Assembly: GCA_027459485.1 (NCBI GenBank)
Contig: DAIDIG010000005.1
Coordinates: forward strand, 62,001-126,000
DNA from: Bdellovibrionales bacterium
GTDB taxonomy: Bacteria > Bdellovibrionota > Bdellovibrionia > Bdellovibrionales > UBA1609
Length of the DNA stretch: 64,000 nt
Direction: 5' to 3'
The translations under genes and the position numbers were made by a program. Every line of letters starts with the position of its first letter. Positions within the stretch are counted from its first letter, which is position 1. Below, piece by piece: positions 6,098 through 41,679 of the stretch. The notes under the pieces were generated by a model that saw only the letters and a list, made by a program, of their open reading frames with translations, was not told the DNA's origin and did not search any database.

Positions 6098-6131
6098 TCG
6101 AAAGGTTGCCCATTTTAATTATGGGCTCTTA

Positions 6132-6170
6132 AGCGCGGAGGCGTATGAACGCAGGAGATGGCGACTTTTC
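6132..6170 (+). repeat. Internally deleted copy of the 120-bp palindromic element at the pth start
   Basis: Bases 6132-6147 match 41600-41615 of the full element at 16 of 16 positions. The next bases, 6148-6161, match 41649-41662 at 13 of 14, with the intervening hairpin tip missing; a T-run and CAG follow as in the full copy. The pth ATG (6145-6147) and its GGAGG (6137-6141) lie inside this fragment. Confidence 0.65.
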
Positions 6171-6756
6171 CAGCGACTGCGTACTTATCGTAGGTCTCGG
6201 CAATCCAGGCTACCGCTACCAGCTCACCCGCCACAATATTGGATTTATGATAGTCGATGCGCTCGCTCGACATTTTGAAGCTCGGCTGAACGAGCAGTTC
6301 AAAAGTCAAATTGCAAAGGCCAAGCACGACGGCCGCGACGTAATTTTAGCCAAACCACAAACTTATATGAATCTATCAGGCGAAGCCGTACAAGCGATTA
6401 CCTCATATTACAAAATCTCGCTTGATAATCTGTTGGTCATTCACGACGATATTGATCAACCGTTCGGTCAGCTGCGATTTCAGCGAAATCGCGGCGCCGG
6501 CGGTCACAACGGGATCCGCGACATCCATGAAAAACTCGGCACGCCTGATTACGCGCGGCTGAAAATTGGTGTCGGCCGCCCAACCAATCCGCATATTCCG
6601 ATTGAAGATTACGTCTTACAGAATTTTGCAAAAGACGAAGAAGGCCAATTGAGCGAAGTTATTCAAGAGGCCGGCGAGGCAGCGCTCACGTTTATAGAAT
6701 CTGGCTTTCAACGCGCACAGAACGAATTTAATAACAGGAGTCGAGATGGGGCTTAA
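6145..6756 (+). CDS. pth: Peptidyl-tRNA hydrolase
   Basis: 203 residues. Pth cleaves peptidyl-tRNA released from stalled ribosomes. Motifs: LIVGLGNPGYRYQLTRHNIGF with the catalytic His, AKPQTYMNLSGEAV, VIHDDIDQPFGQLRF with the catalytic Asp, and RGAGGHNGIRDI. The first 12 residues (MNAGDGDFSSDC) are an extra leader compared with typical Pth proteins, which begin just before the LIVGLGNPG strand. That leader is encoded by a palindromic-repeat fragment. The 3' end overlaps the ychF start by 11 bases. Confidence 0.96.
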   Translation: MNAGDGDFSSDCVLIVGLGNPGYRYQLTRHNIGFMIVDALARHFEARLNEQFKSQIAKAKHDGRDVILAKPQTYMNLSGEAVQAITSYYKISLDNLLVIHDDIDQPFGQLRFQRNRGAGGHNGIRDIHEKLGTPDYARLKIGVGRPTNPHIPIEDYVLQNFAKDEEGQLSEVIQEAGEAALTFIESGFQRAQNEFNNRSRDGA

Positions 6757-27977: not shown

Positions 27978-28600
27978 AGTTGGTGTTCCGAACGCTCCGC
28001 GGGAGTTGCATCAGTTAAATCGTCGTCTTCATCGTCGTCGTGCGCGCCGTAACCGAATTTTTTGATTTTGGATTTGATACGCGCCGATTTGATCGGGCTC
28101 AAGCGGTCGATGAAAAGTTTGCCGTCCAAATGATCGATCTCGTGTTGAATGCAAATGGCGAGAAGGCCGTCGGTCGTGAACGCGATTTTTTTGCCGTCGA
28201 CGTCGAGAGCTTCGACGTCGATGAGGCGCGCGCGCTCGACGATTTCAAAATACGTTGGTACGCTGAGGCAGCCTTCGTTGTACGTGATCTTGCCTTCTTT
28301 TCGTTTCACAACCGGGTTAAACAATATCAGCGGTTGGGTGACGCTTTTTTCGAGTTCCGACACGCCGAGCTCGCCGCGCACTTCTTTTTCGTCTTCGTTT
28401 TCAGGCCTTCGGGTGTCGACCACAATCAGGCGGATCTGCCGGTTGATTTGCGCCGCCGCGAGGCCAATCCCGCGAAAATCGTACATCGTCTCGAGCATAT
28501 CTTGGGCGAGCTGCGCGTATTCGGGGGTGATCTTATCGACCGCCTTGCACTTCTTGCGCAGATTAGGGTCCGGGAATTTCAAAACCTCAAGCTTCGCCAT
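27974..28600 (-). CDS. def: Peptide deformylase
   Basis: 208 residues. Metalloenzyme that removes N-formyl from nascent proteins. All three motifs are present: GIGLAAAQI, EGCLSVP and QHEIDHLDGKLF. Two departures from a typical deformylase: an acidic insert (RRPENEDEKEVRGELG) between motifs 1 and 2, and a C-terminal tail rich in Asp and Lys (HDDDEDDDLTD). It is the first gene of def-fmt-rpe-hutH-hutU-mipA-hutI. Confidence 0.96.
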   Translation of the reverse strand: MAKLEVLKFPDPNLRKKCKAVDKITPEYAQLAQDMLETMYDFRGIGLAAAQINRQIRLIVVDTRRPENEDEKEVRGELGVSELEKSVTQPLILFNPVVKRKEGKITYNEGCLSVPTYFEIVERARLIDVEALDVDGKKIAFTTDGLLAICIQHEIDHLDGKLFIDRLSPIKSARIKSKIKKFGYGAHDDDEDDDLTDATPAERSEHQL

Positions 28601-28624
28601 GAAAACAGTCTACCAAATCGGCAC

Positions 28625-28667
28625 AAGGCGGTCAAAACGTGCGCAAAGGAAGGCAAGTACGACGTAG
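28625..28667 (+). repeat. Degenerate fragment of the palindromic element
   Basis: Bases 28626-28640 match the left arm of the full copy at 30283-30297 at 14 of 15 positions, and 28659-28667 equals 30375-30383 of its right core. The middle is missing or diverged. It lies between divergent def and the first of two unknown lipoprotein genes. Confidence 0.45.
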
Positions 28668-28751
28668 TCGTCCGACTAGAATTGGCACGCATATTGATTG
28701 TGCAATCGGGTTATGTTGTAAAATCGAGTTTGAGCTGATTTGGGAGTAATG

Positions 28752-29786
28752 ATGAAGAGGTTTTTTTTCGAAAATTGTCGCTGGCCACGAAAAATCTGCC
28801 TGGTCCTTATGACAATTGCGATCGGGTGCGCTTCTTATGGGGTTACGACAAAAAGGGACGCATTTTTGCCAAACAAAAGGGTGACTGGAGTTGTTTATAT
28901 TCCAGAAATTAACCGCAGTGTTCACTATACGAAAGATTTTACGACTAAACAGTATATTATCGACTATCGTGATTTAGCAGACGTGAAACTTCAAATGCGC
29001 CCAATTGAAGTTAGTAAGTGTTCCGCTTGGTACAATCGCGCCAAACCTTTGAATCGACTGGATGGAATGTGGGATTTTTTTCAGCGATCGAAAGTTCGAT
29101 TTCATTTAAAGGTATTTCGAATGAATCCAACTGCCATTTCAAATGCATTCGGACCGGGCTGGAAAAACGCAGGCTATCTGGGCGGCAATATAAAGATTGG
29201 CTTCGTCTGGAAACGAAATTCCATAACCCAATCGTGGGGCCCGAGACTCGTATCTAAGGTCGAAGAGTATGTTCAAAATTTATTCGTAGCGCCGCCTACC
29301 CTTTCAACTATAGCAGACAATGGAGAAGCTGACTTTATGGTGCAAAACTCACCATTTGTATGCGACATTCTTGATAACAAAGTCGCATTGACTCTTACAT
29401 TCCAGGGTTACCAGCAGGTCTATTTTGGCTTGATTCCAAACGTTGACCCACAACAGATCGTCGCTGTTAGTCGACTCGTGGTCCATGAATATGATCGTTT
29501 GAAAGCTATTGACGGAAATTTCATTTCAGATGACTTCTGGACGCAACAAGTGCAAAGCGGAGGATTGCTTGGAATTGCTTTGCATCGTGTCGGCATGGCG
29601 CAAACGGTGTTTGATTCTGGAATGTACACAGATCTTAGCAACGATATATTTAAAAACGGAACCGATCAGCCAAGAGTTTTGTCGCGCCAACAGGCAAGTA
29701 AACTACTTAAGAGATCCATTCAGTTCAGTATTCACAATGAGAACTTTACTTTTACTCGCAATTTGACGTCTGCGGTGTCGAGGTGA
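28752..29786 (+). CDS. Hypothetical lipoprotein
   Basis: 344 residues, family not recognised. The N-terminus has a basic stretch, a hydrophobic run (ICLVLMTIAIGC) and a plausible lipobox Cys near 26. The rest is soluble-looking and mixed alpha/beta, with aromatic-rich strands (GYQQVYFGLIPNV) and a conserved-looking HEYDRLKAIDGNF. Start 28752 gives GGGAG a 5-base spacer; an ATG at 28749 and a TTG at 28740 are alternatives. It looks AT-richer than its neighbours and is flanked by palindromic-repeat fragments. The next lipoprotein gene starts 4 bases after its stop. Confidence 0.65.
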   Translation: MKRFFFENCRWPRKICLVLMTIAIGCASYGVTTKRDAFLPNKRVTGVVYIPEINRSVHYTKDFTTKQYIIDYRDLADVKLQMRPIEVSKCSAWYNRAKPLNRLDGMWDFFQRSKVRFHLKVFRMNPTAISNAFGPGWKNAGYLGGNIKIGFVWKRNSITQSWGPRLVSKVEEYVQNLFVAPPTLSTIADNGEADFMVQNSPFVCDILDNKVALTLTFQGYQQVYFGLIPNVDPQQIVAVSRLVVHEYDRLKAIDGNFISDDFWTQQVQSGGLLGIALHRVGMAQTVFDSGMYTDLSNDIFKNGTDQPRVLSRQQASKLLKRSIQFSIHNENFTFTRNLTSAVSR

Positions 29787-29790
29787 TCAC

Positions 29791-30171
29791 ATGAAAAAAG
29801 TATTGGTCGGGCTTTTTGCTTTTGCGCTGATGGGATGTTCTCAAGGCAGCCACCAACCCAACGCCGCAAACGGTACTCAATTCAAATACCAGGCAAACGC
29901 TTGCCCGGCCCAAAATCTTACAGAGGATCAATTTAATCGAGTAGTGATGGATACACAAGTGCCGGATCCGTTTGTGGTTGGAGCAGACCCGGACGAGGCG
30001 GCGGCCCGATTAGCGGTATCATTGTTGATGTCTGGAGTGACCGAGTCTACTCTTTTGAGCTCTATTAAAAACGGCAATTTTGCGGTAATTATGACCTGGA
30101 TAGCTGACGATCCGAGACAAGCGCTGGCAAACTTAAGTAAAATCTCACAATGCCAAATGAAATATCTTTAG
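29791..30171 (+). CDS. Small hypothetical lipoprotein
   Basis: 126 residues with a clear lipobox (FALMGC, Cys about 17). The mature part is Asn/Gln-rich at first (QGSHQPNAANGTQ), then mostly helical (DEAAARLAVSLLMSGVTES), with two Cys after the lipid anchor. No family recognised. It begins 4 bases after the larger lipoprotein gene, so the two form a pair. Confidence 0.65.
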   Translation: MKKVLVGLFAFALMGCSQGSHQPNAANGTQFKYQANACPAQNLTEDQFNRVVMDTQVPDPFVVGADPDEAAARLAVSLLMSGVTESTLLSSIKNGNFAVIMTWIADDPRQALANLSKISQCQMKYL

Positions 30172-30212
30172 CTGGGGCAGTTTAGAAAAGCTTAGATGAA
30201 CGTTATCTTAAA

Positions 30213-30234
30213 AAAGCGGTCAAAAGACCCAGCT
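30213..30234 (+). repeat. Isolated left-arm fragment of the palindromic element
   Basis: These 22 bases repeat the left arm at 30282-30304 (AAAGCGGTCAAAA then a variable triplet, CC and AGCT). They lie 69 bases upstream of the full copy in the same convergent intergenic gap, which suggests local duplication and decay. Confidence 0.5.
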
Positions 30235-30281
30235 AAACGCAAGCGTAAAACGATCAAAATGGCTCAGCCACTAAAAAGTTT

Positions 30282-30403
30282 AAAGCGGTCAAAACGTTCC
30301 AGCTACTAGGCGCTAGGAGCGAACGAGTGAGGCGTATGTACTCAATACGCCGCAATGAAGTGAGCGACGACGCAACGACGTAGATGGACGTTTTCACCGC
30401 TTT
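30282..30403. repeat. Full-length 120-bp near-palindromic element, copy 1
   Basis: Outer arms 30282-30301 and 30385-30403 are inverted repeats with few mismatches. The centre forms a tip hairpin (GGCGTAT at 30331-30337 with ATACGCC at 30345-30351). The core closely matches the element at 41560-41679, but the arms have another sequence. It sits between convergent genes and includes the last codons and stop of the minus-strand lptF/G gene (stop at 30394-30396), so it may also act as a two-way terminator. Confidence 0.8.
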
Positions 30404-31473
30404 AGTCTGACAAGGGCGGCGGTGGCGGCTCCGCCCATGAGCACATCCGGCCCCCACGCTGCCACCAGCGGCGGCAAAACACCGTGCTTCCCCATCGCGA
30501 GAGATGCGCTGTAAAAAACCCAGTAAATAAACGCGATGCCGACGCACAAACCGATATTGAGCATATTGCCGCCGGCTCGCGCGCGCTGAATGGTGAACGG
30601 GATGCCCATGAGCGAAAGCACAAGCCCCGCGAAAGCAAACGACATCTTCGCATAAAGGTCGACTTCGTAGCCGAGGGTGTCCATCCCCGCATCTTTGTTT
30701 TTATGTATAAAGCTTTGCAGTTGCGAACTCGAAAGGGTTTGGCTGTCGGGAGGGTTGGCGCTGAAATCGGCCAAATCTTCGCCGACCGTCAGAGTTTTAT
30801 TTTTGAAAGTTTTGGTGAGCGGAAAGCTCGACTCTTTCGCGAAAAGCGTGACCGACCCGTCGTGTAGATGCCAGGTCATTTTATCCATTTTCACCGATTT
30901 CGCTTTGATTAACTGAACGAGATCCCACGCGCTGTTGAAATAGTAAAGCGTGATACCTTGAGCGGATCGGTTGGCCGCGTTCAAGTATGAAATATTAAAA
31001 ATTGTATTCTCAGAGCGGTACCAAATTTTATTTTTTTCAACAGTTGAATAAAGCCCCGGCGTTTTTTCGAGGTCCACGTAGTATACGTAACTCATTTTTT
31101 GCGCGACATACGGCACGATATGGTCGCCAACCCAATACGTGAGCATGCACATCACTGTGAGGCACGACAGCACCGGTAAACTGATGCGCGCCAAACTGTA
31201 ACCAAGGCTATAAAGCGCCGTGAGCTCGTTATTGCGGCTGAGCGAAGACATTGTGAACATTGTGCCGACCATGCCCCCGACCGGCAGCAGTTGATACACA
31301 ATAATCGGCAAATAGTATTTGTAATACTGGATCATCACATCGGTCGACGCGTGAAACCGCATGGAGGTCGACGTGTAATCGATACCGAAATAAATAACCG
31401 TGAAGACGATGACACCCGCCACAAAATACGAGAAAAAATTTTTTGCCAAGTAGCGGTCGACGATAGTGAACAT
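30394..31473 (-). CDS. LPS export permease, LptF/LptG (YjgP/YjgQ) family
   Basis: 359 residues. Six hydrophobic helices in two groups of three flank a periplasmic beta-jellyroll domain of about 160 residues. Motifs: IVDRYLAKNFFSYFVAGVIVF at the N-terminus, LLPVGGMVGTMFTMSSLSRNNELTAL (coupling helix region to LptB), and C-terminal AFAGLVLSLMGIPFTIQRARAGG. It forms the inner-membrane part of the LPS transport bridge. LptF and LptG usually come as a pair; only one is here and its partner must lie elsewhere. LptG is the more likely assignment. Divergent from a response regulator. Confidence 0.88.
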   Translation of the reverse strand: MFTIVDRYLAKNFFSYFVAGVIVFTVIYFGIDYTSTSMRFHASTDVMIQYYKYYLPIIVYQLLPVGGMVGTMFTMSSLSRNNELTALYSLGYSLARISLPVLSCLTVMCMLTYWVGDHIVPYVAQKMSYVYYVDLEKTPGLYSTVEKNKIWYRSENTIFNISYLNAANRSAQGITLYYFNSAWDLVQLIKAKSVKMDKMTWHLHDGSVTLFAKESSFPLTKTFKNKTLTVGEDLADFSANPPDSQTLSSSQLQSFIHKNKDAGMDTLGYEVDLYAKMSFAFAGLVLSLMGIPFTIQRARAGGNMLNIGLCVGIAFIYWVFYSASLAMGKHGVLPPLVAAWGPDVLMGGAATAALVRLKR

Positions 31474-41559: not shown

Positions 41560-41679
41560 AAGCTCCTCAAAAAGACTCATGTACAAGGCGCGAGGAGCGA
41601 GCGCGGAGGCGTATGTACCCATACGTGGCACAAGCGCAGCGACGAAGCAACGCAGTAGATGGGTCTTTTTCAGGAGCTT
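41560..41679. repeat. Full-length 120-bp near-palindromic element, copy 2
   Basis: Arms 41560-41579 and 41660-41679 are inverted repeats: AAGCTCCT, a mismatched base, then AAAAAGAC, one mismatch, and CA. The core (41580-41659) aligns closely with copy 1 at 30282-30403, including GGCGTATGTAC and GTAGATGG. The arms differ from copy 1 in sequence but keep their pairing and the same C opposite C mismatch. The right arm contains GGAG, the likely Shine-Dalgarno of the next gene. Confidence 0.8.

Follow-up and report, generated by a model that had tools for sequence, protein, structure and literature searches.

We characterize a palindromic DNA element of about 105-130 bp, non-coding and chromosomal, whose middle is constant and whose ends vary from copy to copy yet nearly always pair, supporting the view that a folded single strand is what is kept. 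We observe many copies, pairing of the arms, covariation of the arms at an orthologous locus, constraint on one strand, and gain and loss between species. It is best read as a real and conserved palindrome defined by its structure, a repeat of the MITE/REP/ERIC kind that is already known in part from Geobacter. We put at about even the chances that such a MITE/REP/ERIC-like palindrome has spread within and between genomes, moved as a folded top strand by an enzyme encoded elsewhere.

The window, that is, the whole stretch of 64,000 nt that was analyzed (G000:C5:62001-126000), belongs to a genome of 2.75 Mb in 34 contigs. It holds two full copies of the element, as the initial annotation had claimed, and the features below.

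30281..30404, + strand (core orientation): copy 1 of the element, with arms at about 30281-30301 and 30387-30404
30305..30385, + strand: conserved core of copy 1 (positions 1-80 of model R1; 79.6 bits)
30394-31473, - strand: open reading frame of an LptF/LptG permease gene, whose TGA stop at 30394-30396 lies within the right arm of copy 1
30212..30280, + strand: arm-like remnants GCGGTCAAAA and CGATCAAAATGG beside copy 1
41560..41679, + strand: copy 2 of the element, with arms at about 41560-41579 and 41661-41679
41583..41660, + strand: conserved core of copy 2 (R1 match, 81.9 bits)
6109..6175, + strand: truncated copy, GCGCGGAGGCGTATG-AACGCAGGAGATGG, with most of the core deleted

The cores of copies 1 and 2 align well and their outer arms do not, so the description of a common core between differing outer arms is borne out, as are the locations and mismatches reported for both copies. 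The arms of copy 1 read TAAAGCGGT-C-AAAA facing TTTT-C-ACCGCTTTA, with a C·C mismatch at 30290/30395, and those of copy 2 read AAGCTCCT-C-AAAAA facing TTTTT-C-AGGAGCTT, with a C·C mismatch at 41568/41671; the mismatch adjoins an A/T run in both. Folding of the + strand gives z = -4.35 for copy 1 and -5.74 for copy 2 relative to dinucleotide shuffles, none of 200 shuffles folding as well as either copy. On the strength of these shuffles, and of the pairing of arms that the search had ignored, we reject chance as an explanation. Copy 1 does encode the stop of the permease gene, and its mismatched C at 30395 is the complement of the G in that TGA codon. The AGGAG in the right arm of copy 2 is likely the Shine-Dalgarno sequence of the downstream acyltransferase gene. 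As a separate observation, lptG and def are neighbours in several relatives, and the window has two genes between them in 28600-30394 (28740-29786 and 29791-30171, both on the + strand), with arm-like GCGGTCAAAA motifs at both junctions of this interval (28627, 30215 and 30285).

A plain DNA search recovered a handful of copies. With R1, a model built from an alignment of the cores only, the arms being left out of the search, there are 11 matches in the window's genome, a count of matches above the search threshold that may miss weaker copies, and the family is present in 54 of 141 genomes of the order. The repeat is thus not limited to the two copies first noticed, and arms also pair elsewhere: 9 of the 11 matches have significantly paired arms, with c5 (L013) and L126, whose arms are degraded, as exceptions. 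Beyond the order, we searched species genomes for the exact core pattern GCGGAGGCGTA-N3-12-TACGYCGCACAAG, which matches at least 118 stretches where we estimate a chance expectation below 0.1. The matches listed come mainly from Geobacter and Desulfobacterales relatives, and also from records titled Omnitrophica, Nitrospirae, Zixibacteria, Gemmatimonadetes, Chloroflexi and Chlamydiae, many records being metagenome bins in which binning errors are possible. A single exact match in the viral collection led us to reject a phage-borne element.

Several variants of the architecture were seen along the way. One G004 subclass (L128, L130, L131, L132) has CTTTCAG..TGAAAG inner arms and outer arms of about 20 bp, and its right arm adjoins an apparent tRNA 3' end in at least three copies. 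At L165 (G043:C1:2255400-2256200), three short-core copies follow one another in tandem, 115-116 bp apart, and at L284 the core hairpin GCGGAGGCGTA..CACAAG is doubled head to tail inside one element. In genus g32 (L173, L175, L181, L182 and others), cores are either about 80 or about 60 nt long, and each length tends to go with its own arm type and mismatch type.

In 69 of the 79 copies read, the left and right flanks match as inverted copies with a score above threshold. For the first 50 copies, the arm-pair score averages 15.5 when a left arm is scored against its own right arm, versus 6.2 when the right arm is taken from a different copy in that genome and 5.1 when the arms are shuffled. 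The arms are about 24 nt each, ending on the left side mostly 22-25 nt out from the core, and their outer 8-9 nt are variable. The C·C mismatch recurs in copies with other arms: in the window's own genus at c1, c2, c3, c6, L123, L124 and the G004 copy L023, and beyond it in G026 (L035), G065 (L133, L152) and all eight copies of G052. It is found with yet other arms in Geobacter copies L262, L267, L277, L279 and L286 and in the Chlamydiae record L305; other Geobacter copies often have T·G nearby. At a tRNA-proximal orthologous locus in g32, the same place in the arm is G·A or G·G in 15 of 15 sequences and never paired.

That g32 locus also permitted the listing of compensatory arm changes that had been proposed for this repeat. 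With the arms aligned by hand, anchored on GATGAGAA/TTRTCATC, and the decayed copy G050 left out, 8 of 18 arm base pairs are changed on both sides among 15 arm pairs, versus a mean of 3.7 for shuffles. The covariation score is 0.349 versus 0.143 for shuffles, a value that none of 500 shuffles attained; slid controls do not exceed 0.118. One pair occurs as all four Watson-Crick types and is broken in none of the sequences.

The constraint is unequal between strands. Arm wobbles fall on the top strand (core orientation) 50 times and on the bottom strand 6 times in the order (p=1e-9), and 200 versus 54 times in other phyla; since the copies are related, independent events are fewer than the p-values suggest. 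In 67/78 and 67/74 of the copies that show a difference, the top strand has the lower RNA folding energy. Because the arm wobbles favour one strand, we take a folded single strand to be constrained; the bias fits folded RNA or folded single-stranded DNA rather than a double-stranded protein site, and it fits a functional top-strand RNA equally well as single-stranded DNA. The one-strand wobbles and folding energies, together with the covariation at the orthologous locus, favour the earlier proposal that the fold and not the sequence is kept.

The element also has a preferred position relative to genes. In other phyla, its right arm edge lies -4 to +8 nt from the stop codon of a convergent gene at 23 or 24 of 34 loci, and no comparable spacing was found for genes on the left side of these loci. 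In the window's genome, a gene ends beside the right side of the element at c1, c3, c4, c5, c6 and c7, and the right side of c2 contains the likely ribosome-binding site of the gene that follows. At the c7 locus (L057), the element occupies the point at which, in the relative G005, a stop codon precedes the GTG start of the next gene by 1 nt. Where a stop codon abuts the element, the top strand is antisense to the gene that ends there, which weighs against a putative transcribed structured RNA family (a small RNA or untranslated-region element) whose arms would form a long RNA helix. Such a family would explain the G-U bias and the folding energy of the top strand as well as the arm covariation, and the Geobacter relatives are annotated, in the published text, as predicted short RNA elements. 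However, at c3, c6 and c7 no top-strand gene runs into the element, and its presence and absence between related species (see below) also argues against this reading. Within the window, the only Rfam match to reach the gathering score is a tRNA away from the element, and five copies have no match at E<=1, which speaks against any known Rfam family. We consider a structured RNA possible, if rather improbable.

The abutting stop codons could instead suggest that the element serves the gene ending at its right arm as a strong 3'-end hairpin or terminator, or that it is the two-way terminator that the initial annotation had entertained, and copies in the order are slightly enriched in T immediately beyond the left arm, on that side of the element only (0.38 versus 0.31, p=0.002). 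We regard both versions as unlikely. The T-tract is not clear, the RNA of the gene ending at the right arm corresponds to the bottom strand, which folds less stably, and c6 and c7 lie between co-directional genes where relatives have no terminator. The two-way version is disfavoured as the main explanation, given that only one strand's fold is favoured.

Comparison of related species supports another of the early suggestions, a non-autonomous mobile repeat. Among 24 species at the g32 tRNA locus, 12 sites are filled, 8 lack both arms and core, 3 have arms only (G053, G042, G048) and 1 is decayed; no palindrome or hairpin was found at the 8 empty sites. At the L183 locus, the element is carried by G054 and G051, and the centre of the empty site reads GTCTAG/CTAGAC in G061, G048, G037, G045 and G064 and GTCCAG/CTAGAC in G056; one empty site is the palindrome GGTCTAG/CTAGACC. 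An extra CTAG precedes the element in G054, and L183 is the only locus at which a duplicated target was seen. G056 is empty here though it is closer to G051 than G054 is (92% vs 86% at the L181 locus), a pattern that may possibly come from loss, separate gains or transfer. Within the window's own genus, relatives have element-free sites for c2, c6, c3, c7, c4 and c5; at the c1 site (lptG locus), G003 shows a short hairpin that lacks the core.

Such core-less hairpins, at the tRNA locus as well as in G003, raise the question of whether the core alone is mobile, inserting into the loop of pre-existing hairpins and leaving the arms as property of the host site. The palindromic empty site at L183 and the near-identical cores with unrelated arms in G065 agree with this explanation. 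However, there is no hairpin in the empty sites at c2, c6, c7 or the tRNA locus, the unit inserted at L183 brings its own inner arms, and g32 cores of a given type tend to occur with arms of a given type, so that we judge it very unlikely.

The most interesting point of the repeat is how its site-specific arms arise, and here the genomes differ. In G052, the arms are 65-82% alike, which points to their inheritance. In G065, the cores are 87% alike and the outer arms 34% (26% for shuffled positions), which points to renewal at the site; copy pairs whose cores are at least 95% alike have arms that are 0-78% alike. At c2, the right arm is similar to the empty-site sequence in G003 and in G005 (p=0.0002 and 0.0006), where its left partner is absent, and the gene-side arm of c6 resembles the G005 site (p=0.008; p=0.08 for G003); resemblance to relatives' sites was not significant at c3, c4 and c7. 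One arm at c1 and at c6 contains the last codons of a gene. Because an arm at c2, c6 and c1 resembles DNA already present at the site, the difference between the two paralogues in the window, whose arms do pair as claimed, is not in itself proof of gradual compensation. The 'empty' c2 sites could also be decayed elements. That the right arm is always pre-existing DNA is contradicted at L183, where the empty site lacks the arms, and a strict 8-bp inverted duplication is contradicted by lengths of 7-14 in G065 and others; in the window's own genus, copies of the C-C type do have outer arms of 8-9 bp.

Template switching at hairpins is a single-step process that creates and restores inverted repeats (PMC8794818), and it could reconcile the evidence for arm inheritance with that for arm renewal. 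A more specific idea, which we offer tentatively and with considerable doubt, is that the element on insertion copies about 8-24 nt of its right (stop-codon) flank into an inverted copy at the other end. Fold-back, or self-primed, synthesis on the hairpin would make such a copy. If so, it would account for site-specific paired arms of nearly fixed length, and the element would leave an inverted target duplication rather than the usual direct one.

On the reading to which we give even chances, a mobile palindrome moved in trans, an enzyme encoded elsewhere would recognize the top strand in its folded form, most likely while replication exposes it as single-stranded DNA, and insertion would take place at small palindromic or stop-codon-like sites. 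Selection on the fold would then keep the arms paired, and template switching in the hairpin would help by copying one arm onto the other. RAYT transposases recognize a single strand. Y1 transposase-like genes (PF01797) are present in 12 of 17 tested genomes, one of them in G000; none were found in G043 and G052, which have 10-12 copies of the element, and G001 has such a gene, yet R1 found no copy there. No half-element clearly above shuffle level was found in the flanks of the 28 Y1 loci examined. RAYT mobilization was rejected on two of these counts, the lack of half-elements beside Y1 genes and the lack of PF01797 in G043 and G052, and no mobilizing enzyme or cognate transposase was found among the 17 tested genomes and 28 Y1-gene loci.

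If this account is true, several phyla share one repeat defined by its shape, a conserved mismatch and a short core, with ends that are renewed site by site. Repeat finders that require common terminal repeats will miss or shorten such an element. Because it abuts stop codons, it may affect many transcript ends. In culturable groups such as Geobacter, it would provide a test bed for how DNA hairpins arise, stay paired and move, and for template switching versus slow paired mutation as the driver of compensatory change.

Our literature searches for such a repeat in Bdellovibrio turned up no paper that describes it. The closest known system is a 24-member family of predicted short RNA elements in Geobacter metallireducens (Aklujkar et al. 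2009, PMC2700814, Additional File 4), whose reported centre GRCGTAGCGCTGCTACGCC matches the core GCGGAGGCGTAGCAGCGCTACGCCGCACAAG of the Geobacter copies; its exact reverse complement occurs in Geobacter-type loci such as L254 and L259. As described there, that family is likewise intergenic and multicopy, with similar sequences in several genomes, whereas the paper's text does not mention locus-specific paired arms, a subterminal mismatch, strand bias or empty sites, nor spread beyond Deltaproteobacteria (PMC2700814). Template-switch hairpins offer a mechanism for multi-base compensated arm changes, but they have been described for RNA genes and not for a mobile repeat family (PMC8794818). The dispersed copies and the insertion polymorphism against an empty site that we observe here are as expected of a MITE. 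A MITE should also have termini common to all copies and a cognate transposase, a combination not seen here; shared termini are missing because the outer arms differ among copies with near-identical cores. ERIC/IRU, RUP, NEMIS and other MITE-like repeats are alike in being about 100-200 bp, palindromic, mostly intergenic and able to form one long stem-loop; these repeats have a family-wide terminal inverted repeat, whereas the outer terminal repeat of the element here varies by copy (PMC2229807). GTAG/CGTC-tagged REPs resemble it as palindromes located mostly downstream of genes, but REPs are 20-40 bp and abundant, whereas the element here is about 120 bp, with tens of copies at most (PMC3733652).
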